Shown here: positions 40,945 to 63,759 of the stretch, piece after piece
How positions within the stretch are numbered: position 1 is the stretch's first letter
Layout of the letters: every line of letters starts with the position of its first letter
Assembly (NCBI RefSeq): GCF_030695525.1
Contig: NZ_JAUYSS010000008.1
Span: forward strand, 62,001-126,000
DNA: 64,000 bases
Reading direction: 5' to 3'
DNA from: Daejeonella sp.
GTDB taxonomy: Bacteria > Bacteroidota > Bacteroidia > Sphingobacteriales > Sphingobacteriaceae
Position numbers and translations under genes: made by a program
The notes under the pieces: model-generated
What the model was told of the DNA's origin: nothing
The model's input: only the letters and a program-made list of their open reading frames with translations
Database searches by the model: none

Positions 40945-40966
40945 GGGACTAATCTAAAAACAGTTG

Positions 40967-40980: not shown

Positions 40981-40996
40981 AATCAACCAAATTTGA

Positions 40997-41595: not shown

Positions 41596-41617
41596 CTAAG
41601 CTGAATTTTTAAATATC

Positions 41618-45510: not shown

Positions 45511-46479
45511 TTAAATCTCTTTTAGATACTTCTTGGGAACCTCAGCACCGGCAACATAATTAAGCTTGCCAATTTTACACATCTGATAAACATTAATTCT
45601 GAAATCAGGGCATGTACTCACAAAACAATATGCCTCAACCTGGGTAAAACCATAAGTACTAACCAACCAATCCATCATATAAACCGTTGCCTGATGGACT
45701 GCATCCTCAAGCGGTCTGAAAGCATGAATCGCAATAATGGAATCCGGAGTTTCTATTCGGATTCCGGGAGAACGCTTTCCCTTAATCACCTCAAATGAAA
45801 GCCTGACAGTTGCCTGGGTTTCTGCTGCAGTTCCGGTGAATTCGGTATCTCCCTGACTAGCGTGTACATCGCCCAGATAAAAAAGCCCACCGGGATGGTA
45901 TACCGGAAGGAAAATTTTATTCCCGGGTTTGAAATCACGAATATCCAGGTTTCCACCCCAGTCACCTTGCCCATCCAGGCTGTTTGCCACATCCCTGTCG
46001 GGGGCTACACCCAAAGTACCGATAAACGGGGTAATTGGCCAGGAGATCTTATCATTAAAATGGAGTGTTCCATCAACTGTAGTCCCGCTTGGACCCGGAC
46101 TATGTTCAAAAACCATCGTGCTATATTCACCAGAAATTTCATTCCAGCGGGAAGATTCGCCCAATGGCCCACGATTTGGCCCCACAGCAATCCAGGAAGT
46201 CTTTTCAACCTCAATCTGAAGAATATTAACAACAAGTGTATCACCACGGTCGAGCCCTTCAATAAAAATCGGACCTGCAATTGGGTTTACTAAAGGTGGT
46301 GTACGGTCGAACCCCGGTCGATTGGCAGGAATAGCCTTGTCTGCTGAACTTTTAAAAAACCCAATTCCTGCATCCCAGGTTTCGATTTCAAATTCTTCGC
46401 CCGGTTTAATATGAATTAATGGGGTATCCTGGTAATTGAAAGCAAACTTTTTAGCCTGTTCACGGAGAATCTTTTTCAT
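45511..46479 (-). CDS. Acetamidase/formamidase-family protein
   Basis: This 322-residue enzyme has the family pattern: NPIAGPIFIEGLDRGDTLVVNI near the start, GTLGVAPDRDV in the middle and GDVHASQGDTEFTGTAAE, which carries the zinc ligands of FmdA/AmdA-type amidases. It should hydrolyse short amides such as formamide or acetamide to ammonia and the acid. It has no signal peptide. It lies between the outer-membrane protein gene and a PQQ dehydrogenase gene and shares direction with the latter. Confidence 0.87.
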   Translation of the reverse strand: MKKILREQAKKFAFNYQDTPLIHIKPGEEFEIETWDAGIGFFKSSADKAIPANRPGFDRTPPLVNPIAGPIFIEGLDRGDTLVVNILQIEVEKTSWIAVGPNRGPLGESSRWNEISGEYSTMVFEHSPGPSGTTVDGTLHFNDKISWPITPFIGTLGVAPDRDVANSLDGQGDWGGNLDIRDFKPGNKIFLPVYHPGGLFYLGDVHASQGDTEFTGTAAETQATVRLSFEVIKGKRSPGIRIETPDSIIAIHAFRPLEDAVHQATVYMMDWLVSTYGFTQVEAYCFVSTCPDFRINVYQMCKIGKLNYVAGAEVPKKYLKEI

Positions 46480-46566: not shown

Positions 46567-48777
46567 TTATTGGCTATCAGGTAATGCAAAAACCATGACA
46601 TATCCTCCGGGATTCTCAGCATCACCTGCAACCGATACAGCAATGTATTGCTTCCTACCACTCTTATAGGTTGATGCATTCGAAGTTGTACTGCCCGGGA
46701 TTGGGGTATCCCATATTAATTTTCCGGAATCTTTATCATATGCCCTGAACCTGAAATCAGAACCGCCCATATTGGCTCCGATAAACAGCAATCCACCTGC
46801 AGTTACAATTGGACCGGTATTCCCTTCGGAACCCGTTTCCGGTTCACCTTTTTGCTGTAAATGAGGATAATTGCCTAAAGGAATTGACCATACATAGTCA
46901 CCTGTGTTGAGGTTAATTGCATTTAAGGTTGCCCATGGGGGTTTAATTCCAAAACGCCCTTCCGAATCACGGAACTTACCATTGGATAAAATATCCAGGT
47001 ACCTGACGGGAGCTTCCAGTTTGAATTTATCCGCATCCTTATTTGCTGATTCACTTTTTGCTATTTCTTTCAAAAAATTGATCTCCCTGGCAGGCCTTGT
47101 ATCTATATCAAACAAAAAGGAAATAATCGCTTCTTCTTTACCGGCAATGATACTGGCAAATGAGGGCATCTTACCGGATCCAACTCTGATTTTACCCAGC
47201 ACTTCTTCCTCATTCATTCTGCCCTGAAGGCCAATTAATGATGGATAATCAGTATCCCCCTTCTTATCTGCACCATGACAAGCCTGGCAATAAGTAGCAT
47301 AAAGTGCTTTCCCCTGACTAAATGGTGTGCCTGAGTCATTTTCAGGTTCCATTTTTTTCATGAGACTCACTCCGGGGGTGTTTGTAGCCCTGACATAAAT
47401 TATCCCACTTGCAGGGTCAAAAGCACCCCCTCCCCAACTTGAGCCACCACTTGTTCCGGGAAGATTGACATTGCCCTTTATAGAAGGTGGAGTGAAAAGT
47501 CCTTCATATCTTATGGACTTAAATCTTTTCAATAGTTCATCATTTGACTCCTTTGAAAAATTGCTAAGATCATCCAATGAAATATGCTGGCGGGCATAAG
47601 GCTTTGGTTTTAATGGAAATGGCTGAGTAGGCCATGCCTCTTCACCAGGCACATCCGAAGCAGGTACAGGGCGCTCCTCAATTGGAAATAATGGTTCACC
47701 CGTATCCCGGTTAAGCAGATAAAGGAAACCTATTTTGGATGTTTGGGCTACTGCATCAATTCTTTTTCCATCATGCACAACACTAACCAGATTGGGAGGT
47801 GCCGGCAGGTCATAGTCCCACAGGTCATGATGGATGGTTTGATAATGCCAGATATATTTACCGGTTTGAGCATCAAGGGCCACCACACTGTTACCAAATA
47901 AATTCTGGCCCTTTCGGTCTCCACCGTAGAAATCGTACGAAGGTGATCCCAATGCAAGAAATACCATTCCCCTTTTCTCATCGAGACTCATTCCAGCCCA
48001 GTTATTTACGCCACCGGCATATTTCCAGGCTTCTTTTGGCCAGGTTTCATAACCAAACTCACCCGGATGAGGGATTGTATGGAAAGTCCATACCAGTTTT
48101 CCTGTTCTGATATTATAAGCCCTTTGATAGCCCGGTTCTGCTCCATATAACTCTGAAACTGCAGTGCCAAGGATATACAGATCTTTATAAACAATCCCTG
48201 GTGAGGAAGGAACAACGGATATTTTATCAGGATCACCACGCATACCTGTGTTCAGATTCACTCTGCCGTCCTTTCCAAAATCGGAAATTAATTTCCCGCT
48301 CAGCGCATCCAATGCAAAAAGATTACTCCCAGCTGTAAACAGGATTCTTTTATCCTTTCCATCCTCCCAATAAGTTACACCGCGGCTAACACCTCCACCC
48401 TGAGCTCCAAAAAAAGGGTCAAATGACCATATTTGTTCACCTGTTATCGCATTGATTGCATAAATTCTGTTCCTGCTGGATGGAATATACATGATCCCTT
48501 CAACTATTACAGGATTTGCCTGGATTCTGGATGTTCGCGCACCCGGCAATGCATCCTTAAAACGAAAGGTCCATGCAAGTTCCAATTGATTAACATTCGC
48601 TTTATTGACTTGCTTTAAGGCTGAGTAACTGCTGCTTTTTGAGTCTGATTTATATGTGCTCCAGTTAGTGGGTTTCTGATTTGTTGTCTGGCAGGCTGAA
48701 CTAATAAACAGGAATAAAATAAGCCACAAACCAGATTTTGTGCTTATTTTTTGAAAGATCAAGGTATCACTACGCAT
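46567..48777 (-). CDS. PQQ-dependent dehydrogenase with inserted cytochrome c domain
   Basis: This 736-residue protein starts with a lipoprotein signal (SSACQTT). Eight-bladed propeller repeats follow, with the GEQIWSFDP, GKLVWTFHT, GKYIWHYQT and GDYVWSIPL strands typical of quinoproteins. A heme c motif TYCQACHGADKKG lies near residue 495 inside the second half. The pairing of pyrroloquinoline quinone propeller with heme c resembles type II or membrane-bound sugar/alcohol dehydrogenases that pass electrons to the respiratory chain. The substrate cannot be told. PQQ biosynthesis genes are not in the window. Confidence 0.85.
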   Translation of the reverse strand: MRSDTLIFQKISTKSGLWLILFLFISSACQTTNQKPTNWSTYKSDSKSSSYSALKQVNKANVNQLELAWTFRFKDALPGARTSRIQANPVIVEGIMYIPSSRNRIYAINAITGEQIWSFDPFFGAQGGGVSRGVTYWEDGKDKRILFTAGSNLFALDALSGKLISDFGKDGRVNLNTGMRGDPDKISVVPSSPGIVYKDLYILGTAVSELYGAEPGYQRAYNIRTGKLVWTFHTIPHPGEFGYETWPKEAWKYAGGVNNWAGMSLDEKRGMVFLALGSPSYDFYGGDRKGQNLFGNSVVALDAQTGKYIWHYQTIHHDLWDYDLPAPPNLVSVVHDGKRIDAVAQTSKIGFLYLLNRDTGEPLFPIEERPVPASDVPGEEAWPTQPFPLKPKPYARQHISLDDLSNFSKESNDELLKRFKSIRYEGLFTPPSIKGNVNLPGTSGGSSWGGGAFDPASGIIYVRATNTPGVSLMKKMEPENDSGTPFSQGKALYATYCQACHGADKKGDTDYPSLIGLQGRMNEEEVLGKIRVGSGKMPSFASIIAGKEEAIISFLFDIDTRPAREINFLKEIAKSESANKDADKFKLEAPVRYLDILSNGKFRDSEGRFGIKPPWATLNAINLNTGDYVWSIPLGNYPHLQQKGEPETGSEGNTGPIVTAGGLLFIGANMGGSDFRFRAYDKDSGKLIWDTPIPGSTTSNASTYKSGRKQYIAVSVAGDAENPGGYVMVFALPDSQ

Positions 48778-49147
48778 ACTTTTCCGAACTCAAATATTAA
48801 TAAACTCCATTACCTGGAAATTCATTTCAATTTAAGTTTAAAAATTTATTGGATGAGGGGAATTTGAAAAAATATTCAGGAATGAATTAATTTAATTCAA
48901 GTTAGTAGTGTCAGGTAAAAATTGAGATAATAGGAATAATGATCTTATTACTAACTCATAATTATTCTCTTTTATCGCTTTTTTTTGTTTTTCTGTTGTG
49001 CTCAAGCTTTCCTTCGGGAGATTCCTGCATTCCGACCACTGTCATTATTTAAGAGTTGATTTCATACTAAATCCAAAATAGCAAGTCACGAATTAGTTTA
49101 TTCCTTTTTGGGTTTTAATGAACAATTCAATTTATGGGAAATATTTT

Positions 49148-49738
49148 CCGCTCATGGCCGCGGGGCCTAGTCCTTTTCCTGCAGCAGGAAAGGATTAAAA
49201 TGCCGCCGCTGCGTCTGATGCTTTGAAGGTTTCTGCCTAGGCCCGGCTAGTAGTTGCCGCACCAGCCAATGCGGAAGAAAGCTTATTAATGGGGGCTGCT
49301 AGCGTGGCGTTTAAAAAAAATATTGAGATTAATTATCAGGATCCTAGGCGTATCGCCTTGCAATGACATTCATATACTTTTTTTGCGGCATTGGACAGGG
49401 CGGGCAATTCAAAATTGCCATCGCACTGACTTTCACAGCCCTGTACGCAGCCGTTGATGGATGAACATTCCTAAACTTTTAACGTTAATCTTAGTAACCT
49501 TTAAATCTCGATAATGAGAAATTCATTTAAAATGAACCAAGATTTTCCGAGCGGGGGGAGGACAAAACGGCGGGCCGGGTGTATGGCCTCTAGTAGTGGG
49601 AGCTTCGTTTTGTCTTGATTTTACTCAGTTTTTATTATTGTTTTTTATAGGTCTTCGTGGTCTCACCGCAAGGGCGGTTCGGCATTGGTTACTTTTTCAT
49701 CAAGGAAAAAGTAAATAGGCCTCCGCGGCTATGAGCGG
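49148..49738. mobile_element. Degenerate GC-rich element with imperfect inverted ends
   Basis: CCGCTCATGGCCGCGG (49148-49163) and CCGCGGCTATGAGCGG (49723-49738) are inverted with 15 of 16 bases matching, bounding 591 bp. Inside are a near-perfect hairpin (49171-49195) and an ACTTTTTC/GAAAAAGT hairpin (49691-49712). No transposase frame is visible. It looks like a non-autonomous or decayed mobile or repeat element; the type is unknown. Confidence 0.45.
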
Positions 49739-49853
49739 TATAAATTTGAAATCACACGGAATAATTATAACCCTGAATAGATATAACATACTGTATATTA
49801 GATATTTAAGATACTAAATAATTACATTGGCAGTCCGCTAGGATGAACCCATT

Positions 49854-49887
49854 CGGACGGGCAGCAGGGAAAAGGATTGCCCTTCCG
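49854..49887. repeat. GC-rich hairpin repeat
   Basis: CGGAcGGGCA and TGCCCtTCCG pair with a single C-T mismatch around a loop that contains GCAGGGAAAAGGAT. A similar GCAGGAAAGGAT sequence occurs at 49184-49195, and a similarly built hairpin lies at 16922-16956. Confidence 0.45.
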
Positions 49888-49968
49888 CCGCAAAGGCTGA
49901 CTAATTTTATTATTAATTATAAATTTTATTTTTACCTGACATTGTGATTAAACGCTGACTATATTAAT

Positions 49969-51273
49969 TCACCATCTGGTGGCTTGAAATTTCCAACCCG
50001 GGACTTTCTTCTGCATTTCAATCTCATCATTTCTCTTTTTGAGGCCACAATTAATATAGTTTTGATGCAATCTTGCCAGTGCAATTTTATCCAGTTCAAC
50101 GCCTAAGCCCGGCTCATCCGGAACCTGAACCGAACCATCGGTGAATTTAATCCGGCCACCCAGTATAACTTCATCCGATTGCCATGGATAGTGTGTATCC
50201 AGAGCATAGGGCATCTTGGGAAGTGCAGCGCCCAAATGTACCATGGCAGCTAATGAAATACCTAAATGGCTATTAGAATGCATGGATAAATCCCGGCCAA
50301 AGGTTTCGCAAATTCCCGAAAGGGTCATCGATGCCTTCAAACCGCCCCAAAAGTGATGATCACTCAAAATTATATCCTCCGAACCAATTTTTATACTGGC
50401 AGGTATCTCCTCGAATGAGGTTGTACACATATTGGTTGCGAGCGGGGTTTTTAAAACCTTACGGACAGCAGCCATATTTTCTTGTCCACGAACAGGATCC
50501 TCCAGGTATTCCAATACCCCTTCAAGTTCTTTTCCATATTGAATCGCTGTATTCAGAGCCCAAATGGCATTGGGATCAAAACGCAAGGGAACAGATGGAC
50601 CAAATTCTTTATAAAGTGCCAGTATTGTATCCACTTCAATTCTGGGTTCAAATACACCTCCTTTTAGTTTGATGGATTTAAAACCAAACTCCTTGCACAT
50701 CGCTTTGGCCTGAAATACGATTTCTTCAGGATTTATAGCCTGTTTTTGTTTGGCTGCCTCCCATCCAATTGCAGTTGGGTCTAGATTGAACCCATATTCT
50801 CCTCCTGCACCTTCGTATTTATAAAAGAGGTATGCGGAAAAGGGTACACTTTCCCGCATTTTACCTCCAAGCAAATCAACTATCGGCCGTCCCAGCACTT
50901 TGCCCATAATATCCATACAGGCAACTTCAACTGAACTGAAAATATGTACCAATTTCCTTTGATCCCATGGTGCTTCCCCTCTTGCCAGAGGAGATTCGGA
51001 ACCAAATCGTTCAGACAATACCGCCCTGATCTGATTCAGCTGGAATACGTCTTGTCCGATCAGAAGCTCTTTTGCTTCATAAAGTGCCTGCTCAATGTCA
51101 GAGGTTCCGGGTATCTCGCTGATACCTGAAATCTGATCATCGGTAATAATTTCCAATATAATTCTCAGGGCATAGGGGGCATGCAGACCTGCCGCATTTA
51201 ATAATGGCGGGTCAACAATCGCTATGGGTGTGATAACGATATCCTTTATTCTTGGACCTCTTTGTCTGAGCAT
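49969..51273 (-). CDS. Glucarate dehydratase-like enolase-superfamily enzyme
   Basis: This 434-residue protein matches GudD over its length. The catalytic Lys pair is in FKSIKLKGGVFEP, metal ligands are in LRFDPNAIW, YLEDPVRGQE and TNMCTT, and the catalytic His lies in LSMHSNSHLG. The end, KFTDGSVQVPDEPGLGVELD, is typical too. GudD dehydrates D-glucarate (or L-idarate) to 5-keto-4-deoxyglucarate. The following steps, GarL- and GarR-type enzymes, are encoded upstream in the same operon. An altaric or galactaric preference cannot be excluded. Confidence 0.9.
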   Translation of the reverse strand: MLRQRGPRIKDIVITPIAIVDPPLLNAAGLHAPYALRIILEIITDDQISGISEIPGTSDIEQALYEAKELLIGQDVFQLNQIRAVLSERFGSESPLARGEAPWDQRKLVHIFSSVEVACMDIMGKVLGRPIVDLLGGKMRESVPFSAYLFYKYEGAGGEYGFNLDPTAIGWEAAKQKQAINPEEIVFQAKAMCKEFGFKSIKLKGGVFEPRIEVDTILALYKEFGPSVPLRFDPNAIWALNTAIQYGKELEGVLEYLEDPVRGQENMAAVRKVLKTPLATNMCTTSFEEIPASIKIGSEDIILSDHHFWGGLKASMTLSGICETFGRDLSMHSNSHLGISLAAMVHLGAALPKMPYALDTHYPWQSDEVILGGRIKFTDGSVQVPDEPGLGVELDKIALARLHQNYINCGLKKRNDEIEMQKKVPGWKFQATRW

Positions 51274-51292
51274 ATTGTTGTGTTAGATAATA

Positions 51293-52417
51293 TTAGCTCG
51301 CCGCTTCGGCCTCCTCAGTTACAGCCTGAATTAAGCCCTTAATATATCCATAACAGAATGCAAAGGACTGCCAGCTGGCAACAGGATCTTTGTGATAAGG
51401 TACGTGATCAGGCATAACCATACCATCAAAACCTACTTCACGCAATTCCCTAACAACCTGAAGGAAATTCATGTCCCCATTATCAGGATAAACCTCCTGG
51501 AAATTTCCCCATCCACCTTTGATGTTTCTCAGGTGAATGTTAAATATCTGATTCCGTTCTCCGGCCCATCTGATGATTGGAATGATATCATTTTTGGGAT
51601 CCTTTAAACCTTCAGCAATAGAACCGATACAGAAGTTAAAGCCATGATATTTGCTGTCATAAAGTTGAGCGAAGCGCTTAATTCCTTCAAATACATCCGG
51701 ACTGTTCCAACGGGTGATTCCCCTGTAGCCAACAGGAGCAGGTGGATCAGCAATATGGTTAGCCAGTTTTACATTATATTCTTTAGCAACCGGCAGAGTT
51801 CTGTCTAATAAATAGGTGATCCGTTCAAACATATCATCGATGCTTACATCCCCGGCAATGGTTTTTGGGTCATTCCTTCTCAATGCTTCAGGCAGATCCC
51901 AGGTACTGTATTCTGCATTGCCCCGTTTCGGATCAATTGTTCTTCCGGTTCTAAGTACTGGCAGGATGGTAGTATTATAATTAATTACTTTAATTCCTGT
52001 TTTCCCTGAAACCATGATCATTTGATTGAGCATTTCGATTTCGCGGTCTCTTTCCGGACTTTTACCAAGCATTACGTTAGGGAAAATCACTTTGTCAATA
52101 CCGGCAGAAGTCAATGGCCAGTGGTAGGCATCCAGGCTTATTCCATACTTTTCACAAGCCTCTCTTTTCCGGAGTGAATCTTCGAGATCCCATCCCACTC
52201 CAGGAATAACTTTAGGAGCTCCCCCATCAATATTATAAACCCCGCAGCGCCCTTTCAATTGGAGGTTCTCTTCGGTAGTTCCACCAGACTGGCATCCAAC
52301 TTTCATCAATACCTTTCTCGGTTTTGGTTTTACTTCTGCCATTGACTCGATTGGAGACAAAACGGATGCACCTATGGATCCGGCAGCAATTGTTTTAACA
52401 AAATTTCTACGTTGCAT
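51293..52417 (-). CDS. Tat-exported UxuA-like (mannonate dehydratase-type) TIM-barrel protein
   Basis: A 374-residue protein with a Tat signal (MQRRNFVKTIAAGSIGASVLSP) and a TIM barrel. UxuA features include NFCIGSIAEGL, FNIHLRNIKGG and MVMPDHVPY with metal-binding His and Asp/Cys residues. UxuA turns D-mannonate into 2-keto-3-deoxygluconate and is normally cytoplasmic, so a Tat signal is unusual. ATG 52417 is chosen because the signal starts there; a longer frame to 52513 overlaps the next gene by 59 bases and is unlikely. Confidence 0.8.
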   Translation of the reverse strand: MQRRNFVKTIAAGSIGASVLSPIESMAEVKPKPRKVLMKVGCQSGGTTEENLQLKGRCGVYNIDGGAPKVIPGVGWDLEDSLRKREACEKYGISLDAYHWPLTSAGIDKVIFPNVMLGKSPERDREIEMLNQMIMVSGKTGIKVINYNTTILPVLRTGRTIDPKRGNAEYSTWDLPEALRRNDPKTIAGDVSIDDMFERITYLLDRTLPVAKEYNVKLANHIADPPAPVGYRGITRWNSPDVFEGIKRFAQLYDSKYHGFNFCIGSIAEGLKDPKNDIIPIIRWAGERNQIFNIHLRNIKGGWGNFQEVYPDNGDMNFLQVVRELREVGFDGMVMPDHVPYHKDPVASWQSFAFCYGYIKGLIQAVTEEAEAAS

Positions 52418-52454
52418 AATTTTAATTTTATTAAGTTCGGTTAAACAAAATGAT

Positions 52455-53309
52455 TTACTTTTTTTCTTGTAGCAGAAAAAGGGAACTATGATCCAACTCC
52501 CCATGACCCTCATTAAGCAGCTGCTCCATTAATCCGGCTACTAATTCAGTGGCTTTTAAAGAAACCTGATGATTAGCTCCGGTTTGCAGGGCTATTCCCA
52601 TATCTTTCTTATGTAATTTTACTTTAAATCCGGGAACAAAATTCCCGTCTATCATGCGTTTGCCGTGTAAGTCTAAAATGCGGCTTTGTGCAAATCCTCC
52701 TAAAAGCACTTCTCTCATTTTCTCGAGATTAACCCCTGCTTTTTTGGCCATTGAAAAGGCCTCCGCCACTGCCTGTATCGTAATCCCAACAATCATTTGA
52801 TTACATGCCTTCGTCACCTGACCAGCACCGGCATCTCCAATAAGCACAATATTTTTGCCCATTGCCTGCAAAACCGAAAGGGCTCTGTTAAAAGATTCCT
52901 CAGTTCCTCCTGCCATAATCGATAAAGTACCAGCTTCGGCACCTACCTGTCCACCAGAAACAGGGGCATCCAACGCGGAAACTCCCTTTTCCTTGAGACT
53001 ATTATAAATTTCGATGCTCACACCCGGCGAAATGGTAGACATGTCTATAAAAAGAGAGCCCTTTTTGATTCCCGGAAGAATTTCTGAAACAACCTGTTTT
53101 ACTTCTGGTGAATCAGGTAACATCGTGATAATGACATCTGAATTTGCAGAAAGATCTGCAATACTTTCACATACCTTTGCCCCGGCAGACTGAACAGTCC
53201 CGGAAGAACTGCTTTTACTCAAAACATTAACCTCAAAACCGGCTTTTAATAAATTCAATACCATCGGTTTTCCCATGATACCCAAACCGATAAATCCTAT
53301 TTTTTCCAT
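52455..53309 (-). CDS. GarR-type 2-hydroxy-3-oxopropionate reductase
   Basis: This 284-residue beta-hydroxyacid dehydrogenase starts IGFIGLGIMGKPMVLNLLKAG (cofactor binding), then DAPVSGGQVGAEAGTLSIM, and the catalytic Lys is in VTKACNQMIVG. It fits tartronate semialdehyde reductase, which makes D-glycerate from the GarL product with NADH. It lies between GntP and the UxuA-like gene, consistent with an aldarate route. Other 3-hydroxyacid reductases of this fold remain possible. Confidence 0.88.
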   Translation of the reverse strand: MEKIGFIGLGIMGKPMVLNLLKAGFEVNVLSKSSSSGTVQSAGAKVCESIADLSANSDVIITMLPDSPEVKQVVSEILPGIKKGSLFIDMSTISPGVSIEIYNSLKEKGVSALDAPVSGGQVGAEAGTLSIMAGGTEESFNRALSVLQAMGKNIVLIGDAGAGQVTKACNQMIVGITIQAVAEAFSMAKKAGVNLEKMREVLLGGFAQSRILDLHGKRMIDGNFVPGFKVKLHKKDMGIALQTGANHQVSLKATELVAGLMEQLLNEGHGELDHSSLFLLQEKK

Positions 53310-53335
53310 TACCTATTAATTACAATTTAAAATTC

Positions 53336-54784
53336 TTAAACCAGTGGAAATAATTTTGCCCCTATCATAATGACGATAAGACCTGTAAAACCCATAACGA
53401 CTAACAAAGGCGAAATGGTCTTAAGTGCTTCTTTTTCTGTCAGGTTACTCAATTTACAAATAATCCAGAATCCGGAATCATTCATCCATGGAACTATCTT
53501 AGATCCACAACCGATTGCTAATCCTAAATACACAGGATGAAATGCCAAATCAGAATTCAAAGCCATCCCGGATAAAATTCCAGATGCAGTAATCAGCGCA
53601 ACAGTGGCTGATCCTTGTGCAGTACGAACAATAGCGGCAATCATGAAAGCCAGAGGGATTAATGCCATTTGATAACCTTTGGTCATATCTGCAATTTCAG
53701 AACTAATACCGGTTTGCTGCAACATGCCTCCAAATGCACCACCTGCAGCAGTAATCAGTATAATCCCCCCGCCACTATTTAAAGCAGCCTGGATTTGAGA
53801 TGAAATTCCCTCTTTCGAATCCTTTTTACGACTGGCCAGAATCAATAAAGCCGCAATTCCGCCAATTACCAGGGCAGTGTTCTTATTTCCAAAGAATCCA
53901 ACGATACTAATTAAAGTCTGGGACATTGGTGAAAGGCTACTGATATCAGCAGGTTTAAATGCATTTACAATTGTATCTATACAAATAAAGACCAGAGGAA
54001 TCAGGATCGGTAATAAGGAAATTCCTAAACCTGGAAGATGCTTAGTGTCAATGATTGAAGCAGCCCGGATATCTTCCAGTTTGGCATCTGCTGAATCCCG
54101 CATTTCAATTGGGCCTCTCTTATTCGACCATACCGAGAAAAAATATCCAGCGGTAATGGTAAAAAGACCTACAATTGTACCCGCAACCATCATCAAACCA
54201 ATTGGAATATTCATTTCACCAATCAAAAAAAGTGGGCCGGGTGCCGGAGGAACCAAAGAATTAGCCATAGCAGCTCCCGCCATAACACACATCACAAGTA
54301 AAAGGTAACTGTTTTTAATCCTTAATGCCATAGATTTAACTAATGGCATCATTAAGAAAATAACAGTATCAAAAAATACCGGAATACCTATAAAAAAGCT
54401 ACTCACCAAAAATGCGACAGGAGCTTTATCCATGCCCGTTAAATACAGGATAGACCTGATTATTCTCTCGGCGGCTCCGCTTTCCAGTAAACATTTGCCA
54501 ATAATGGCAGCCATGGCAATCAAAATTCCGATTTTAGCACAGGTGTTTCCAAACTCTGTAGCAATCCGTTCTCCAACATTTCTTTTCGAAAAAGACAATG
54601 CCGCATCCGCAGACATCCCTTTTGATACAGCATAATTTTGAAGAAAGTCAGGAGGGGTAAGCATTGAAACAATAAATGCTGCGAATAATAAGGCTAGGAA
54701 TGGATGAAGCTTGAAGCCAATAATCCCACCGACAACGATGACTACACCAATAAATAACAATAAGAATGGATCGGATAAATACAT
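53336..54784 (-). CDS. GntP-family gluconate/sugar-acid permease
   Basis: This 482-residue membrane protein has about 12-14 helices and GntP-family stretches such as GFKLHPFLALLFAAFIV near the start, FFIGIPVFFDTVIFLMMPLV and NSLVPPAPGPLFLIGEMNIP. Members import gluconate, idonate or other acids with protons. Here glucarate or a related acid is the likely cargo given the enzymes around it. Confidence 0.9.
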   Translation of the reverse strand: MYLSDPFLLLFIGVVIVVGGIIGFKLHPFLALLFAAFIVSMLTPPDFLQNYAVSKGMSADAALSFSKRNVGERIATEFGNTCAKIGILIAMAAIIGKCLLESGAAERIIRSILYLTGMDKAPVAFLVSSFFIGIPVFFDTVIFLMMPLVKSMALRIKNSYLLLVMCVMAGAAMANSLVPPAPGPLFLIGEMNIPIGLMMVAGTIVGLFTITAGYFFSVWSNKRGPIEMRDSADAKLEDIRAASIIDTKHLPGLGISLLPILIPLVFICIDTIVNAFKPADISSLSPMSQTLISIVGFFGNKNTALVIGGIAALLILASRKKDSKEGISSQIQAALNSGGGIILITAAGGAFGGMLQQTGISSEIADMTKGYQMALIPLAFMIAAIVRTAQGSATVALITASGILSGMALNSDLAFHPVYLGLAIGCGSKIVPWMNDSGFWIICKLSNLTEKEALKTISPLLVVMGFTGLIVIMIGAKLFPLV

Positions 54785-54797
54785 AAGATTAATCGGA

Positions 54798-55571
54798 TTA
54801 AATTTGTGGTTTTCTAAAATCTGCTAGTTTATTGGCCATATTACGTGCACCGTCAGCTACGAAAGTTGCGTCGGCACCACAAGCCAGGAATCGGATTCCC
54901 ATTTTATGGTATTTTTGATAATCATCGGGATTGAAGAAAAGTATTCCTACGGCTTTATTAGCCTTTTTTGCGGCTCCAATTATTCTTTGAACTGCATCCA
55001 GAAAATCTGGATGATCAAATTGTCCGAAAATGCCTAATTCCATAGTCAGATCTGCGGGCCCGATAAATAGGACATCCACTCCTTCAATGGCTGCTACTTC
55101 ATCCAGATGATTTAATACTTCCCTGGTTTCAATTTGTACCACCCCAAGAATCTGATCTTTGGACTTCTGGTAATAGTCATTAAAATTCAATCCGAATTGG
55201 GTAGCCCGAACCATTTTTGCAACCCCTCTGTTTCCAAAAGGTGGATAATGCAGACCCTTAACAACCTTCAAAGCCTCTTCAGCATTCCGAACCTTTGGGC
55301 ACATCACCCCTTCAGCACCCATATCCAGAACCCGGTGAATTCGTTGTGGCTCAGTACTTTCGGCACGAACTATCACTCCGGCAGAAGTATGTTCCAAAGC
55401 CTGTATCTGTGATAGTGTAGTACTTTCAGAGCCTGCACCATGTTCCAGATCAATCAAAACCCAATCAAAACCGGATAGCCCAACTATTTCGGCAGTGACA
55501 GCACTGCCTAGATTTAACCAACAACCATTCAGGGTTTCCCCGTTTAATAATCTCTGTTTTAAGTTTTTCAT
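54798..55571 (-). CDS. HpcH/HpaI-family aldolase, GarL-like
   Basis: This 257-residue class II aldolase has the family signature WVLIDLEHGAGSE, then VIVRAEST, GVMCPKVRNAEE, VVQIETREVLNHLDEV and VLFIGPADLTMELG. The Glu and Asp of QIET and PADL bind the divalent metal. GarL splits 5-keto-4-deoxyglucarate into pyruvate and tartronate semialdehyde. It is encoded directly after SusD (71-base gap) and before GntP, placing it at the start of the catabolic part of the operon. Confidence 0.87.
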   Translation of the reverse strand: MKNLKQRLLNGETLNGCWLNLGSAVTAEIVGLSGFDWVLIDLEHGAGSESTTLSQIQALEHTSAGVIVRAESTEPQRIHRVLDMGAEGVMCPKVRNAEEALKVVKGLHYPPFGNRGVAKMVRATQFGLNFNDYYQKSKDQILGVVQIETREVLNHLDEVAAIEGVDVLFIGPADLTMELGIFGQFDHPDFLDAVQRIIGAAKKANKAVGILFFNPDDYQKYHKMGIRFLACGADATFVADGARNMANKLADFRKPQI

Positions 55572-55642
55572 GTTAAATCTGACAGTGCTGTTTGTATTTA
55601 AAATTTAGTGTCGTTGTTCTCTGGTAAGTAAATGAAATATAA

Positions 55643-57169
55643 CTACTTTTTATCCCACCAGATGCGGGTATCCATAATATCAGCACCCTGCCTTGCAATT
55701 GCTGCCTGTACATTCGTTTTATTTACATTCAGTTCAGCGTCAGTATAAGTCAATCTCCGGATAAATGGTTCTGTCTTAAGATCCTTACCGGGATAAGGAT
55801 TCGGTGTCAGATTTGGGAAACCACTTCTTCTGAAATTAGCCCATGCTTCTGGTCCAATCAGAAAATTTGCCACCCAATATTGCGTGTTAATTTGTTCCAA
55901 CTCCTTTCCGGCTGCAATTGGATTTGCAGACACAAATGTGTTAATTGCTGCATCTGTAATGGCTGAACTTGCTCCATAACTTGCAAATTGCTGCATATGA
56001 GCGCGAATTCCATTGCTATAAAAAGTTCCCATAGTACCTGTTGTCCAATTCCTGAACGATGCTTCAGCCAATAACAATTGGGTTTGTGCGTATGTAACCA
56101 GGAAGCTGGGAGCATTCAATCCGGCCATCCGGGTACGGTCGAGCTGACTGTAATCCCATAAACTTGCCAAATTGCTTGCTTTGACTGCTGTGGTAATGGT
56201 GGTATTATCATAACCCAGAGGCGCCCCAATCTGAACAGCCGGGGTTCTGTTAGCCCTTGATTCAACCTGCTGGGCGCCACTTGCAGCACCGACATAACGC
56301 ACAGCAATTGCTGCTAAACGTGGATCATTCGCATTTTTAAGATGAGTTACAAAATCTTCGGCAAGATAAAAGAATGCAGACTGCCCTCCGTTTAATTGTG
56401 AACCAACCGGGTTTGCAAAAGATGCATTATGTCTGATGATCGCGTTGTCGGCGTTTGATTGCATCAGACCACCGGTAACTGCCTTTCCTACAGCTTCTGC
56501 GGCTTTGGTGGGATTTATTTTTGATAAACGCATACCGGCACGTAGCAGTAAAGAGTATCCAAATCTTTTCCATTTAGTTATATCTCCATCGTATAATACA
56601 TCGGTTGTAACCCTTGTTTTGGCAGCATCCAATCCTGCGGAGGCAGTTTCCAGCTCAGTTAAAATAGATGTATAAATTGATTCCTGAGAATCATAGGCCG
56701 GAGTTGAAATACCCTCCAGGTAATTTTTACCAGCCTGATTGTAAGGAACATCTCCATAGGTATCAGTCAAAAGCATAAATGTGTATGCTTTCCATATTCG
56801 GGCCATATTATACAGGTTGGAACGAGCCGGGAGATCTTTGGTTTTTGCAATTACATCAGTTAATTCTTTAACATTAGTTTGATAAAGATTATTCCAATTT
56901 CCTGCAGCAACACCACGGTTATCCTGATTAAAGTTAGCTGCTGAACCCTGACCACTAAAAGGTGTGATCATTTGCTTTACTATTGTAGTCTCATAACTCA
57001 GATTTCCATATCCGGGTGCAGTATTAATTATGGCTGAATTTAATTGATAAGAAGGCTCTACTGAGGTTAAGGCAATGGGGTTGACGTTCATTTCATCAAA
57101 ACCTTTATCACAGCTCAGCAGTCCGAAAAGGACCAGAAAAATAGCTGAAATTCTTAGTTTATTTTTCAT
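55643..57169 (-). CDS. SusD/RagB-family outer-membrane lipoprotein (SusD-like-2)
   Basis: A 508-residue lipoprotein (lipobox LLSCDKG) with SusD-like-2 features: NQDNRGVAAGNWNNLYQTNV, KAYTFMLLTDTYGDVPYNQAG and YDGDITKWKRFGYSLLLRAGMRLS. It would cap the SusC barrel and bind the ligand on the cell surface. The gene is 60 bases downstream of SusC. The presence of a SusCD pair in front of aldarate genes suggests uptake of a larger glycan or glucuronic/aldaric conjugate, not free small acids. Confidence 0.9.
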   Translation of the reverse strand: MKNKLRISAIFLVLFGLLSCDKGFDEMNVNPIALTSVEPSYQLNSAIINTAPGYGNLSYETTIVKQMITPFSGQGSAANFNQDNRGVAAGNWNNLYQTNVKELTDVIAKTKDLPARSNLYNMARIWKAYTFMLLTDTYGDVPYNQAGKNYLEGISTPAYDSQESIYTSILTELETASAGLDAAKTRVTTDVLYDGDITKWKRFGYSLLLRAGMRLSKINPTKAAEAVGKAVTGGLMQSNADNAIIRHNASFANPVGSQLNGGQSAFFYLAEDFVTHLKNANDPRLAAIAVRYVGAASGAQQVESRANRTPAVQIGAPLGYDNTTITTAVKASNLASLWDYSQLDRTRMAGLNAPSFLVTYAQTQLLLAEASFRNWTTGTMGTFYSNGIRAHMQQFASYGASSAITDAAINTFVSANPIAAGKELEQINTQYWVANFLIGPEAWANFRRSGFPNLTPNPYPGKDLKTEPFIRRLTYTDAELNVNKTNVQAAIARQGADIMDTRIWWDKK

Positions 57170-57229
57170 CTTAATATTTTTTAGTATTCAATTTATCTAA
57201 AATATTCTCGTGTTGAATGTTTGGATTTA

Positions 57230-60200
57230 TTAGAACTTAACGTTCAGATTGAATCCTATACTTCTCGTAATAGGCAGCCCGGTTGCTTCCAATCCAACCA
57301 AATTGTCGGATGGCAAACCGGATTGTTCAGGGTGAATGTTATCAACCCATTTCTTTATTGCCCAAACATTGTTAGCAACACCATTCAAACGCAATCCCTT
57401 GATAAATGAAAGTCTGGAAGGTATAAAACGTGTAAAATCATAGCCAAGCGTAATTTGACGCAATTGCCAGAGTCCGGCATTATAGACAAATTGTTCTGCA
57501 ATATTTTGGGAACGTACTGTTTCATAATATGCCTGAAGACCTGATTTGGTTGCATTTACCTGGCCATTCGGATTAACACCTTCACCAAGAACTAAGTTAT
57601 CCGCACGTCCAACTAAAGTTGCTTTGTGTAAGCCATGGCGCCATGCATTATGATTGGTTCCCGAAATTAGTTTATGCCCTAATTTGAAGTCGACAAGGAA
57701 AGACATCTCCACGCCTTTTACTGATAAACTATTGGAGAGGCCACCAACCCAAACCGGTATTGCCGATCCAAAGGAAATTTGAGTTGGAGTACGGAGCGGG
57801 CGACCATTTCCGGCATCAAATACTTGTCTGCCTTGTGCATCTCTTAAATACCCAAAGCCAAATAACTGTCCCATCGCCTGACCAACTACCTGGCGAAGCT
57901 CTCCGGTAAAATCAGCAGTACCCACAGTGATCATATTATCACTAACACCACTTCCCAGATTCAATACTTCTGTTTTATTGTAGGAAGTATTGAAAGCAAG
58001 ATTCCAGTAAACACTTTGAGTCCTGATTGGATTAACAGTAAGCAACATTTCCACCCCCTGATTCCTGCTTTGTCCAACATTGATCAACTGGTTTAAATAA
58101 CCACCTGCATTGGAAGTTTGTGCTCTTAATATCTGATCTGATGATAGCTTATTGTAATACGTGAAATCTAAACCTATCAGATTGTCCAATACTTTCAATT
58201 CCAAACCAAATTCCTTTTCAGAAACCCTCATTGGGCGCAGATCTGCATTGGGAACTGTAGATCCGCTTATGCTTCCTAAAGGTTGAGCTGCACCGCTTGG
58301 AGAAGGAAACTGCTGTGCACCTATTCCATAAAATAAATTATTGGCATACGGGCTAATATCAGTATCACTACCTACCTCGGCGTAAGCGGCCCTGATTTTA
58401 CCAAAGTTTAACCATTTGGGCAAAGATGAACCAAGTGCTTGGGAGAATACAAAACTACCTGTGACTGATGGATATAAGATACTCCTGTTAGCCGGCGAAA
58501 GGGTTGAAAACCAATCGTTACGTAATGTACCATTTAGGAACAAAAAGTCCTTGTAAGAAAGTTCAGCCGAACCATAAAATGAATTTACCTCGCGCTCTGA
58601 ATAATCATAAATTGCATCTCTCTGGCGACTATTGCCAATTGTATAGAGATCCCGTGTATAAAAGTCCTGCACAAAAACATTATGCCGGCTAATCTTCCGA
58701 TTCATTTGATTTCCACCAACATTCAGACTTGCACCAAAATCGCCAAAGGTTTTATTTGCACCAACTAAGAAATCAGCGTTCAACTCCCTGACTGAACGGG
58801 CGTCCTGGACGAACTGTCCATTCACGAAACCTGCCGGAGCGGCTGCCTGTCTTTGGGTACCTGTTGGCAGATTGTAATCCTGTTCCCTGGAATAGAAATC
58901 CTGTCCAATTCTACCTTGTACGAATAACCAATCATTGATATTGTATTTTGCAGTAACATTGCCGAAAACACGGTCATTATTAATGTTATCAAAACGTTTC
59001 AGCGCAAAATATGGATTCGTCCTGTTGGTAAATCTGGACCATACATTTTCATTCCCATTAGCATCTTCAGCATATTGTTCCAATATGGATAAAGGCATAG
59101 AAGTAGCCAGGGTGAATATAGTAACCGGGCTAAAATCCTGCTCGGCAATGTTAGGCGGATTCTTACGATACTCCTTAGAGTAGTTTATATTACCTGTTAC
59201 TGTTAATTTTTTACCTAAATTTTGAGTAAATCCTAAGTTTATTGTATTCCGGTCATAACCTGAATTTGGTAGGATTGTGTTGTTTTTAAGGTTTGAAACC
59301 GAGAGGTTTAATCCACCATTTGCACCACCAGAGGCTAAGCTGATTGTATTTGACAGATTACTTCCTGTTCTATAATATTTGTCGATAACACTACCTTGGT
59401 ACTCATAAGGTACTATTATATTATTAAAAAGGGTATGCGTCATGCCCGGTTGAAACTTCTCTCCAAAGCTCCAAACACCCGAAGTAGGAAAAGCGGTTGT
59501 TGGTCTTACCCCATTCTCTCCCTGACCATATTCGCTCTGATAGTCGGTATAATCCAAAGGATCATCAGTTGTATAATTTGAATTATAAGTTAGTGTAACC
59601 CCATCAGATCCTTTATTTTTTGTTGTAATCATAATTACACCATCCTTAGCTCTTGAACCATATAATGCTGAAGCAGCTGCACCTTTCAAAACCGTCATGC
59701 TTTCTATATCATCAGGATTGATACTCCCTAAACCATCACCTCCATCCGAAGTACGGTTACTTCCTCTTTGGGATACATCTCCTCTTGCAGCATAATTGGT
59801 ATTATCTATCGGGACACCATTTACTACAATCAATGGTGAATTATTACCACCAAATGAAGACTGCCCCCTGATTCTGATTTTACTTGTTCCGGCAGGGCCA
59901 GATCCCATAGGCGTAATATTTACTCCGGCAACTTTTCCCTGAAGTGCATTCATGAAATTGGTTGTCCGGTTAACAGTCAGCTCTTCTGCAGAGACATTAG
60001 TTGTTGCATAACCTAAACTTTTCGATTGTCTTTTAATACCTAATGCAGTAACAACAACCTCATTCAGGGCAGTATTGGCTGTTTCGAGTTTTACATTTAT
60101 TGATGTCCGTTGATTTACAGCAACTTCCTGTGTTGTAAAACCAATAAAAGAAAACACGAGAACACCACTTCCATCTGGAATGGTGATCGAAAATTTTCCA

Positions 60201-60805
60201 TCCAGATCTGTGGTTGCACCGATATTTGTACCCTTGAGCTTGATACTTACACCAGGAAGTGTCTCGCCTCTGGAATCAGAAACAAGACCCCTGACAACTA
60301 TATCCTTTTGCAAATTAACTTCTTCGGGAGCAGCAGAAAAATTCTGTAATTGTCTCAGGTCAGTGATAGGAATAGTCTTTTTAGAAACCAGTATTGTTTT
60401 ATTCTTAATACTAAAATCAAGAGGCTGATCCTTAAAAACATTGATCAAAACCTTTGAAAGATCTTCATTTGAAGCATTAATTGTAACCGGCTTCGCTAAA
60501 GCGAATAATTCCTCCTGAAAAAAGAAGCCATAACCAGTTTGCTTTTTTATTACCGTAAATACAGTTTCAAGGGAGACATTTTCACCGCTGTAGGTAATCT
60601 TTTGAGAAAATCCTTCGGCACTTGCGTTTAAGATTAAAACAACAAGAAGTATGAATGTCAGTTTCATAACACGGAGTATTTTATTGAAAATAACCCATTG
60701 TGAACTAGCATATGTTAAGAATTGAATTCCACTCTTTATCTCTGGCTTTGAGTCTAAACTATGGTTAAAACCCACATAGCCTTCATTTTTAGAAAATAAA
60801 TTCAT
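57230..60805 (-). CDS. SusC/RagA-type TonB-dependent receptor with STN domain
   Basis: About 1190 residues. After a short N-terminal stretch comes a hydrophobic segment (MKLTFILLVVLILNASA), then an STN domain (VFTVIKKQTGYGFFFQEELF), a carboxypeptidase-like insert (VVRGLVSDSRGETLPGVSIK and following), the plug (NFMNALQGKVAGVNITPMG, IRIRGQSSF) and the barrel that ends in NLNVKF. The STN domain fits signalling to the FecR protein encoded just upstream. The frame continues to TTG 60841; ATG 60805 is preferred, and ATG 60667 directly before the hydrophobic part is a second option. Confidence 0.93.
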   Translation of the reverse strand: MNLFSKNEGYVGFNHSLDSKPEIKSGIQFLTYASSQWVIFNKILRVMKLTFILLVVLILNASAEGFSQKITYSGENVSLETVFTVIKKQTGYGFFFQEELFALAKPVTINASNEDLSKVLINVFKDQPLDFSIKNKTILVSKKTIPITDLRQLQNFSAAPEEVNLQKDIVVRGLVSDSRGETLPGVSIKLKGTNIGATTDLDGKFSITIPDGSGVLVFSFIGFTTQEVAVNQRTSINVKLETANTALNEVVVTALGIKRQSKSLGYATTNVSAEELTVNRTTNFMNALQGKVAGVNITPMGSGPAGTSKIRIRGQSSFGGNNSPLIVVNGVPIDNTNYAARGDVSQRGSNRTSDGGDGLGSINPDDIESMTVLKGAAASALYGSRAKDGVIMITTKNKGSDGVTLTYNSNYTTDDPLDYTDYQSEYGQGENGVRPTTAFPTSGVWSFGEKFQPGMTHTLFNNIIVPYEYQGSVIDKYYRTGSNLSNTISLASGGANGGLNLSVSNLKNNTILPNSGYDRNTINLGFTQNLGKKLTVTGNINYSKEYRKNPPNIAEQDFSPVTIFTLATSMPLSILEQYAEDANGNENVWSRFTNRTNPYFALKRFDNINNDRVFGNVTAKYNINDWLFVQGRIGQDFYSREQDYNLPTGTQRQAAAPAGFVNGQFVQDARSVRELNADFLVGANKTFGDFGASLNVGGNQMNRKISRHNVFVQDFYTRDLYTIGNSRQRDAIYDYSEREVNSFYGSAELSYKDFLFLNGTLRNDWFSTLSPANRSILYPSVTGSFVFSQALGSSLPKWLNFGKIRAAYAEVGSDTDISPYANNLFYGIGAQQFPSPSGAAQPLGSISGSTVPNADLRPMRVSEKEFGLELKVLDNLIGLDFTYYNKLSSDQILRAQTSNAGGYLNQLINVGQSRNQGVEMLLTVNPIRTQSVYWNLAFNTSYNKTEVLNLGSGVSDNMITVGTADFTGELRQVVGQAMGQLFGFGYLRDAQGRQVFDAGNGRPLRTPTQISFGSAIPVWVGGLSNSLSVKGVEMSFLVDFKLGHKLISGTNHNAWRHGLHKATLVGRADNLVLGEGVNPNGQVNATKSGLQAYYETVRSQNIAEQFVYNAGLWQLRQITLGYDFTRFIPSRLSFIKGLRLNGVANNVWAIKKWVDNIHPEQSGLPSDNLVGLEATGLPITRSIGFNLNVKF

Positions 60806-60923
60806 AAATTTGATTGGTTTGGTGATCAGAAATTGAAGCAATTAAATTATTTGAAGTCCAAACTTTGACCAGGAGCGGGCCAACGCTTCTGGTTTTTTGT
60901 TTAGCCTTATTTTAGGTAAGAAA

Positions 60924-62096
60924 TTAAGGCATAACAACAACCTCCTTTCCTTCTAAACTAAAATGGATATCACTTTTTTCAAGAATCTCTAATACTTCCA
61001 AAAGAGTCAAACTATTTGAAATAGCGCCTGAAAAGTGGTGTTCCGGTAAATTACCCTCATATCTTGCTGTTACGCCATACCACCGTCCAAGCTGTCGCAT
61101 AACAGTCTCTATATCTGCCTTTTTAAAATGGAAATAACCCTCTTTCCAAGCTATTTCAGTCTGGGTATCAATTCTCCTGACCTGAATACTCTGATCAACA
61201 TTTGATTGCTCACCTGGCTTTAGAAGCTTGGAATCATTAGTTTTTAAATCAATTACTCGGATCTCACCCTCAAATAAGGTTGTTTTAATTGACTTCTCAT
61301 CGGAGTAAGCATTGATGTTAAATTGAGTTCCAAGTACCTCCACAGTTTGAATTCCGGAACGGACTGAAAACTTTCTATTATAATCTTTTGATACTTCAAA
61401 ATAAGCTTCACCTTTTAATTCAACCTCGCGATTATTTTCAGAGAAAAAGATTGGGAATCGTATAGAAGATGAAGAATTCAACCAGACTTTACTGCCGTCG
61501 GCAAGATTCAATTGATATTTACCCCCAACTGGAGTCTCAATGGTATTGTAAACAGGATCTGCTTCATCCGAACCGATATTCTTATTTTTTTCTTGTTTTG
61601 AAAATGTATATTCAATGATACCATCCGAATTCTTCTGCACTTTTATCCCTCCCTGATTAACCAATATCCCATTTTCGGATTCATCCAGTTCGATCTTCCT
61701 TCCATCCGCCAATGTGAGAATTGCTTTGCTTCCCCCGGGCAGAATATCATTCGCTTTCACATTAACCTGAATTTTATCGGTACTTCCCTTTTGATTCTCT
61801 TTTGTATAAAAATAAGAACCCAAAATGAAGATTGCCAGAAACATTAGAGGAACACCTAATTTGCTAAAATTGCTTTTAAATTTAAAAAGCTTGTCACTTT
61901 CAATTTCATCATGCTTAATTATTTTGGCATAAATCATCGACTTCAATTCATTTTCTGATTGGCTATTATTTAATTCCCATTCAGCTTCAAGACTACTTTC
62001 TCTCCAATACCATTGCAGTAATCTTTCCTCTTCCTCTTTGGAGGCATTATCATGCAGGTATTTTTCGACTAGTTCCTGGATTTCCTCCTTGTGCAT
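60924..62096 (-). CDS. FecR-family anti-sigma/sigma-regulator protein
   Basis: This 390-residue protein has a cytoplasmic N-terminus of about 75 residues, one membrane helix (MFLAIFILGSYFY), and the periplasmic FecR domain (TPVGGKYQLNLADGSKVWLNSSSSIRFP, VELKGEAYFEVSKD, VLGTQFNINAYSDE), then a C-terminal domain that contacts the receptor (YFHFKKADIETVMRQLGRWYG). It relays substrate occupancy of SusC to the ECF sigma factor encoded upstream. Confidence 0.92.
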   Translation of the reverse strand: MHKEEIQELVEKYLHDNASKEEEERLLQWYWRESSLEAEWELNNSQSENELKSMIYAKIIKHDEIESDKLFKFKSNFSKLGVPLMFLAIFILGSYFYTKENQKGSTDKIQVNVKANDILPGGSKAILTLADGRKIELDESENGILVNQGGIKVQKNSDGIIEYTFSKQEKNKNIGSDEADPVYNTIETPVGGKYQLNLADGSKVWLNSSSSIRFPIFFSENNREVELKGEAYFEVSKDYNRKFSVRSGIQTVEVLGTQFNINAYSDEKSIKTTLFEGEIRVIDLKTNDSKLLKPGEQSNVDQSIQVRRIDTQTEIAWKEGYFHFKKADIETVMRQLGRWYGVTARYEGNLPEHHFSGAISNSLTLLEVLEILEKSDIHFSLEGKEVVVMP

Positions 62097-62193
62097 AGCT
62101 TAAAATTTAGGCATATTAATTATAGAGTACCACAATGTACCTGTATACCCTTGCTCATATCAAAAATATTTTGAGGAACTGATATTGATAAAC

Positions 62194-62754
62194 CTAGAAT
62201 AGGTTAAGTGAATTCTTCAGGCTGAGTCTCAGAGCCTTTAATCCTTTTGTTAAATGACCTTCAACCGTTTTTTCAGAAATTCCTAATTCCATTGAGATCT
62301 CTGAAATACTAAGGCCGGCATTTCTACTGAACCTGAAAACCAGTTTGCACTTTTCAGGAAGCTTTTCAATAAGCTTGTTGATGTAATCTTGTGTAAATCT
62401 GGCATCAATCAGTTCTTCACTCAGCGTAGAGGACTCTTCCAGGCAATTAGAAGATTCAATCTCCAATCTTCTCTTTTGTCTATAGATAAACTTAAACATG
62501 GACAATCTAACGGAACTGGCGAGATAACTATTCAGACATGCAATATCAAGATCTAATCTTCTGGACCATATCCCGATAAAAATATCCTGCACAATCTCCT
62601 GAGAAACAGATTTATCCTTGCTAATATTATAGGCAATTGAAAGCAACCTCTTCCAGTATCTGTTATAGATCTCTGAAAAAGCCTCCTCATTTCCTAACCT
62701 CAGTAAGGCTAGTAATTCGCTATCCGATTTAGCGTGATAATTCAATCCTTTCAA
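62194..62754 (-). CDS. ECF RNA polymerase sigma factor
   Basis: A 186-residue sigma-70 family protein with region 2 (EEAFSEIYNRYWKRLLSIAYNISKDKSVSQEIVQDIFIGIW) and region 4 (KLPEKCKLVFRFSRNAGLSISEISMELGISEKTVEGHLTKGLKAL). It is encoded before fecR and SusC, the standard arrangement for substrate-triggered expression of a TonB receptor operon. The start is TTG 62754; no in-frame ATG lies nearby. Confidence 0.92.
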   Translation of the reverse strand: MKGLNYHAKSDSELLALLRLGNEEAFSEIYNRYWKRLLSIAYNISKDKSVSQEIVQDIFIGIWSRRLDLDIACLNSYLASSVRLSMFKFIYRQKRRLEIESSNCLEESSTLSEELIDARFTQDYINKLIEKLPEKCKLVFRFSRNAGLSISEISMELGISEKTVEGHLTKGLKALRLSLKNSLNLF

Positions 62755-62865: not shown

Positions 62866-63759
62866 CTATTTATTCAAAACCCCTTTAACAGGCCTTCCGA
62901 TCCAAACCTGTGGTGTCTTCAGTTTCAAAAGATTGGCAATAGTTGCCGCAGTATCGAATGTCATAATGCTTTCTGATAATTTATTATTTCTTTGAATCCC
63001 GGGGCCTCTGATGATCCATGGAATCTGCATTTCAAGCATAGAGATCAGGCCGTGCCCTTTATTCACTCCTCCATGATCTGCAGTAAACAGTACCACCGTG
63101 TTTTTTTCTATTCCCGCCTCTTTTATACTTTTTAAAATAGTTCCAATATGGGTATCGGTTCGTTCAATAGCTGCATAATATTCAGGGGTACCATGTCCAA
63201 CCTTATGTCCGACACTATCGACATCATGGAGATGAACAAATAGAAAATTGGGCTTTTTTTCTTTAATATACTTTGATGCAGCATTGGCAATGGCTATATC
63301 TCCATCTGCATTCTGGTCATGATTGACTGCTGCTTTGGGAAAGAGAAAGCCTATGCCATCCCATTCATAGATTACACCAATCTCACTGTCTGGTTTTTCT
63401 TTACGCAAGAGTGCATATAAACTGGGGAACATTCCATACTCATCCAGCACCCTGGCAGGCATATCAGGCTTTTTACTGCCCCAGGTAGTATAACCATGTA
63501 GCTCAGGCCCCGCACCCATCACCATCGATGCCCAGTTTGCAGCACTTGAAGAAGGCAGCACAGTTCTCGCCTCTAAGCTCCATGAACCTTCCCTCATCAT
63601 GGCCCTGAGGTTAGGCACCTTTGCATTTTCAAAGGCATAAGCCCCAAATCCATCAGAGCCAATTAATATGACATGCTTAATTTTCTGTGAAAAAACCGCT
63701 GGCGGAGTAATACCAAACAAAAACAATAATATTATGAACTTACCTAATTCAATCTTCAT
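62866..63759 (-). CDS. Secreted alkaline phosphatase-superfamily (nucleotide pyrophosphatase/PDE type) protein
   Basis: A 297-residue protein with a signal peptide ending VFSQ and the metal-binding pattern of type I phosphodiesterase/nucleotide pyrophosphatase: VILIGSDGFGAYAFENAKVPNLRAM, LPSSSAANWASMVMG with the putative Ser/Thr nucleophile, FVHLHDVDSVGHKVGHG and VVLFTADHGGVNKGHG. The length is shorter than that of many NPPs. It should hydrolyse phosphodiesters or phosphomonoesters in the periplasm. It is unlinked in direction to the sigma gene except by co-orientation. Confidence 0.85.
   Translation of the reverse strand: MKIELGKFIILLFLFGITPPAVFSQKIKHVILIGSDGFGAYAFENAKVPNLRAMMREGSWSLEARTVLPSSSAANWASMVMGAGPELHGYTTWGSKKPDMPARVLDEYGMFPSLYALLRKEKPDSEIGVIYEWDGIGFLFPKAAVNHDQNADGDIAIANAASKYIKEKKPNFLFVHLHDVDSVGHKVGHGTPEYYAAIERTDTHIGTILKSIKEAGIEKNTVVLFTADHGGVNKGHGLISMLEMQIPWIIRGPGIQRNNKLSESIMTFDTAATIANLLKLKTPQVWIGRPVKGVLNK

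Follow-up and report, generated by a model that had tools for sequence, protein, structure and literature searches.

A nine-gene operon in the genome of a freshwater, Daejeonella-like member of the Sphingobacteriaceae (assembly of 4.2 Mb) was found to combine genes of a glucarate-type pathway with a SusCD pair and an exported UxuA-like protein, designated UxuA-T, and the point of novelty is this SusCD and UxuA-T module within a glucarate operon. In the reading that we prefer, which we hold to be moderately probable, the operon would carry out TonB-powered uptake and catabolism of aldarate-group sugar acids, with UxuA-T acting in the periplasm on the cargo of SusCD. SusCD pairs are generally interpreted as importers of glycans, and a SusCD locus that lacks a hydrolase is usually assigned no substrate. 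In the open-licence literature, judged mostly from titles and abstracts, no SusCD or TonB uptake locus for sugar acids was found to be described, and for glucarate a microbial-mat reconstruction proposes TTT transporters instead of SusCD (PMC5507952).

Layout of the operon

The operon occupies positions 49969-62754, on the minus strand, of the 64,000-nucleotide stretch of DNA that was analysed (the window), and the nine genes that a first-pass annotation had reported on one strand with short gaps were all confirmed in their places, the intergenic gaps being 13-97 bp. The first gene encodes an ECF sigma factor (62194-62754; TIGR02985, 129 bits against a cut-off of 126) and is followed by genes for a FecR anti-sigma factor/transducer (60924-62096; PF04773 and PF16344, both above cut-off), a SusC TonB-dependent transporter with an STN signalling domain (57230-60841; TIGR04056, 600 against 368; TIGR04057, 57 against 46; PF07660), and a SusD surface lipoprotein (55643-57169; PF12771, 272 bits against 27; lipobox LLSC). 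Next come an HpcH/HpaI-family aldolase, proposed to be a GarL-type 5-keto-4-deoxyglucarate aldolase (54798-55571; PF03328, 144 bits), a GntP-family inner-membrane sugar-acid permease (53336-54784; PF02447, 288 bits), a GarR-type tartronate semialdehyde reductase (52455-53309), UxuA-T, an exported UxuA-like TIM barrel assigned by PF03786 (116 bits), alignments and predicted fold (51293-52417), and a GudD-like aldarate (glucarate) dehydratase without a signal peptide (49969-51273). The TTG at 60841 probably lies upstream of the true start of SusC. The start of UxuA-T, previously placed at 52513, was corrected to 52417 (the ATG of MQRRNFVK), and its gene therefore does not overlap that of GarR. 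The gene order recurs in tens of further genomes, which excludes a chance grouping.

A gene for a PQQ dehydrogenase lipoprotein with a cytochrome c domain (46567-48777, minus strand; PF01011, 619 bits; PF13442) lies downstream. By synteny it is kept beside the operon in relatives from the Sphingobacteriaceae, and it is probably a linked but separate transcription unit. A profile search of the host genome found no PqqE above cut-off, so an active dehydrogenase would depend on PQQ obtained from outside. The 1.19 kb non-coding stretch between this gene and that of GudD (48778-49968) is likely an insertion or degraded sequence, since the corresponding gap in a close relative (L009) is only about 0.1 kb. 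An acetamidase/formamidase-family gene (45511-46479) follows the PQQ dehydrogenase gene and is found in the same place in L011 and L012, and a phosphodiesterase-like gene (62866-63759) lies upstream of the operon.

The uptake and signalling genes

SusC passes the cut-off of a curated subfamily of TonB-linked outer membrane proteins (TIGR04056) and is adjoined by a SusD-family lipoprotein, as is characteristic of a SusCD pair, and the FecIRA-type signalling set (ECF sigma factor, FecR and the STN domain of the receptor) is complete, with every member above cut-off. SusCD polysaccharide utilisation loci with ECF/FecR regulation likewise hold a SusC with STN, a SusD, an ECF sigma/anti-sigma pair and degradative genes in one operon; here, in contrast, the degradative genes encode sugar-acid enzymes and the exported UxuA-like protein. 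No carbohydrate-active hydrolase or lyase was found among the nine operon genes, the upstream neighbour, or the PQQ dehydrogenase and amidase genes that follow the operon, in agreement with the earlier statement that the operon holds no glycoside hydrolase, and the locus thus lacks the hydrolase or lyase by which a polysaccharide utilisation locus is defined.

The cytosolic aldarate route

The best NCBIfam match of the GudD-like protein is TIGR03247 (312 bits, well below the cut-off of 829), and its closest solved relatives are 3vdg, 3va8 and 3vc5, each described as a "probable glucarate dehydratase" (400-420 bits), which, so far as is known, come from actinobacteria or other sources and have no SusCD pair as partner. 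The GudD-like protein is 35% identical to E. coli GudD and, in the alignment, retains K205, K207, D235, N237, E260, N289, D313, H339, N341, H32, Y150 and R422; the E266-bearing loop is missing and T103 is replaced by Pro. The GarL-type aldolase scores 219 against an equivalog cut-off of 407 (TIGR03239) and is scored alike by the HpaI model TIGR02311 (225, also below cut-off), and the best-scoring family of the GarR-type reductase is TIGR01505 (314, just short of 341). That GudD, GarL and GarR are all beneath their NCBIfam equivalog cut-offs counts against our preferred explanation, as does the loss of the E266 loop.

The strongest evidence for aldarate catabolism is gene context. We compared 80 related loci from named genomes, gathered through GudD, and the partner of GudD in them was either GarL with GarR or GarD with KdgD. 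In the GntP-GarD-GudD-KdgD operons of relatives, the galactarate dehydratase GarD (831 bits against 731) and the 5-keto-4-deoxyglucarate dehydratase KdgD (379 against 374) were both identified by NCBIfam above cut-off. Because the two pairings share one intermediate, the predicted product of the GudD-like enzyme is very probably 5-keto-4-deoxyglucarate. Judged from sequence, aldarate (glucarate-type) catabolism by the operon is well supported, and the original assignment to glucarate is borne out by both the conserved GudD active site and the exchange of GarD and KdgD in relatives. A glycerate kinase is encoded on a separate contig of the host genome (412 bits), so the GarL/GarR route can be finished.

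The operon shares three cytosolic steps with the gud/gar system of E. coli (GudD, GarL, GarR, GarK) but differs from it in having a GntP-family permease instead of GudP, in having its glycerate kinase elsewhere, and in the addition of SusCD and UxuA-T. The host genome also differs in that no GarD above cut-off was found in it, and galactarate use by the host is therefore not supported.

UxuA-T, an exported UxuA-like protein

The N-terminus of UxuA-T is signal-like, a feature conserved among its orthologues. A Tat signal had been proposed for it, and a clear twin arginine is indeed present in the host lineage and in L067; most orthologues from the Spirosomaceae, however, keep a single arginine, so the family is better called "exported" than "Tat". 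The residues H221, C263, H295 and D337 (the putative metal site) and H338 do not vary among 24 aligned sequences, and this His/Cys/His/Asp site and the Asp-His pair line up with their counterparts in standard UxuA. The C-terminal PGYSAIGR-type motif, present in most standard UxuA proteins aligned, is absent. This residue reading is confined to the aligned metal site and the missing motif; because that motif is missing, the reaction of UxuA-T is not readable from its family. UxuA-T also scores far below the UxuA cut-offs (TIGR00695, 53 against 200; another UxuA model, 88 against 191).

An AlphaFold model of middling confidence (mean pLDDT 69), used for the fold only, places UxuA-T nearest the mannonate dehydratase 3ban (Z 25.4; 3.5 A over 303 residues). 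Compared with the mannonate dehydratases of the UxuA family (3ban, 1tz9 and 4eac), UxuA-T would share the TIM-barrel fold (Z 24-25), the metal site and the His that follows it, but it is exported and has a shorter C-terminus. Close orthologues were found in 3 of 395 sampled genomes of the class, each with a matching SusD nearby. The absent motif, the low UxuA scores and the tie of the orthologues to a matching SusD indicate, on the sequence evidence, that UxuA-T is a separate, context-bound subfamily with its putative metal site intact. A direct conversion by UxuA-T to 5-keto-4-deoxyglucarate was considered and not adopted, since GudD is kept beside UxuA-T, a retention that sampling through GudD biases and for which only the three loci from the UxuA search are free of that bias.

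SusCD and UxuA-T as one module

Among the 63 of the 80 loci with enough upstream sequence to be evaluated, 31 have both SusD and UxuA-T, 30 have neither, two have UxuA-T only, and none has SusD only. On the GudD tree each of the two traits switches 12-13 times, and six of seven independent pairs are concordant with none opposite (p = 0.031); the joint gain or loss of SusCD and UxuA-T therefore holds on the tree. The two are not neighbours: SusCD heads the operon, and in most loci UxuA-T lies between GarR and GudD. One small deletion could therefore not produce the joint pattern, whereas replacement of the whole operon could. In loci without UxuA-T, GarR and GudD are 26-109 bp apart, and no significant remnant of UxuA-T was detected between them. 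The exceptions are L013 and L014, which combine UxuA-T with an MFS gene that occupies the position of SusCD and whose genomes hold no SusD orthologue, and L057, which has UxuA-T without SusCD; these three loci count against our preferred explanation.

In Larkinella rosea and in Persicitalea the operon includes an amidohydrolase with a Tat signal, from a family that contains lactonases; the oxidative uronate pathway is known to include a galactarolactone isomerase from the amidohydrolase superfamily (PMC6353982). This amidohydrolase and the PQQ dehydrogenase, both lineage-specific, fit a periplasmic lactone or oxidation stage.

Sister loci of the SusD clade

A tree built from 57 SusD proteins puts the host SusD in a 16-member clade (SH-aLRT 99), and the next closest SusD proteins are 42-58% identical to it. 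In L160 and L161, SusD is accompanied by six exported MR/MLE dehydratases, a UxuA with a Tat signal, and a secreted RraA-like protein; this SusCD locus lies at 3872-16631 of L160, and like pieces were seen on contigs C36 and C46 of the host itself (L165 and L166). SusD is found with exported galactonate- and mannonate-type dehydratases and a PQQ dehydrogenase in L164, L167 and L170, and the Tat-exported galactonate-type dehydratase of a sister locus scores 447 bits against a cut-off of 311. L167 and L170 also hold a KDPG-type aldolase, an MFS transporter resembling D-galactonate transporters, and a DgoK-like gene that was labelled by reading and has no NCBIfam match. In L162, SusD occurs with a decarboxylating 6-phosphogluconate dehydrogenase and, beyond an AraC gene, a gluconokinase-like FGGY kinase, while L166, L171, L177 and L178 pair SusD with RraA-like, MR/MLE or PQQ genes.

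Sugar-acid genes lay within 7 kb of SusD in 10 of 14 clade members, whereas only 4 of the 41 SusD proteins outside the clade had them (p = 2e-5 by Fisher's test), a comparison that omits two members fetched for their dehydratase and gives too small a p value because its rows include orthologues; by ortholog groups the count is 7 of 9. We tentatively raise the possibility, short of an expectation, of a distinct sugar-acid SusCD clade in the Sphingobacteriaceae and Spirosomaceae, in which PQQ dehydrogenases and exported enolase- and UxuA-family dehydratases may replace glycoside hydrolases and oxidise and dehydrate sugars to 2-keto-3-deoxy acids in the periplasm, before uptake through the inner membrane. 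A SusCD clade tied to sugar-acid enzymes would offer a rule by which the cargo could be predicted across many genomes, and the strict pairing of SusCD with UxuA-T points to a periplasmic stage, so far undescribed, in the use of sugar acids by Bacteroidota of fresh water and soil.

Proposed working of the operon and its alternatives

SusD and SusC, with roles assigned by family, would capture and import a ligand whose nature we infer. By analogy with FecIRA-type systems, ligand binding would be signalled from the STN domain of SusC through FecR to the ECF sigma factor, which would turn the operon on. In the periplasm, UxuA-T would convert the cargo of SusCD to an acid that GntP carries, a conversion suggested by the joint gain and loss with SusCD, the intact metal site and the signal peptide, and GntP would then move the product across the inner membrane. 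In the cytosol, GudD would dehydrate glucarate to 5-keto-4-deoxyglucarate, the GarL-type aldolase would split this into pyruvate and tartronate semialdehyde, and GarR would reduce the latter to glycerate for the kinase encoded elsewhere. UxuA-T would thus stand in for the glycoside hydrolase of an ordinary SusCD locus, and exported sugar-acid enzymes, here and in the sister loci, offer a plausible answer to the puzzle of the missing hydrolase. For the cargo itself, a sugar acid, its lactone or a small derivative is most likely, in preference to an oligosaccharide, given that most of the other SusD genes of the clade adjoin those for exported galactonate/mannonate-type dehydratases, PQQ dehydrogenases, RraA-like proteins or 6-phosphogluconate dehydrogenase.

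Alternatively, SusCD could import a larger ligand, such as an aldarate or uronate conjugate or an oxidised oligosaccharide, from which a hydrolase encoded elsewhere would free the aldarate. SusCD usually serves oligomers, the nearest solved relatives of SusD include glucan-binding proteins, and about half of the relatives (30 of 63 loci) manage the same cytosolic pathway without SusCD, which is therefore not required for plain aldarate. This last count supports the original suggestion that SusCD implies more than free glucarate; the oxidised oligosaccharides and glucuronic or aldaric conjugates then named have no direct support. We nevertheless consider a larger ligand unlikely, because, within the window, neither the operon nor the genes beside it encode a hydrolase, the annotated neighbours in other loci also lack one except for a GH1 in a separate downstream cluster of L013 and L015, and SusCD is tracked by an exported UxuA-like enzyme and not by a hydrolase. 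The exported sugar-acid dehydratases of the sister SusCD loci likewise favour simple sugar acids, or small derivatives of them, over the oligosaccharide-type ligand first envisaged.

About equally doubtful is that SusCD is a high-affinity importer of scarce free aldarate or aldonate, with UxuA-T serving a side substrate and dispensable for the main cargo. Sister loci with enzymes for free sugar acids, as where the 6-phosphogluconate dehydrogenase lies by the gluconokinase-like gene, and the retention of GudD in SusCD-bearing loci would fit such an importer, but the near-perfect joint presence of SusD and UxuA-T argues against it. It is very improbable that UxuA-T is an ordinary mannonate dehydratase in an operon for glucuronate and mannonate, as the predicted fold and a UxaC gene about 25 kb away in the window might suggest, given the scores far under the UxuA cut-offs, the missing PGYSAIGR motif, a second, separate UxuA-like gene on contig C34 of the same genome, and an operon without KDG kinase or KDPG aldolase.

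Other clusters in the window

A second sugar-acid cluster, without SusCD, was observed at 17192-26622; it encodes the UxaC glucuronate isomerase (682 bits), two MFS transporters and several GFO/IDH/MocA oxidoreductases, three of which have twin-arginine signals. An OprD-family porin gene (28410-29846; PF03573, 44 bits) offers a possible route for free sugar acids. At 33606-42436 are genes for two metallo-beta-lactamase/rhodanese proteins, a TauE-type exporter, a thiopurine-methyltransferase-like protein and a fragment of a sulphur-transport-family protein, a cluster that looks like one for sulphur or persulphide handling.
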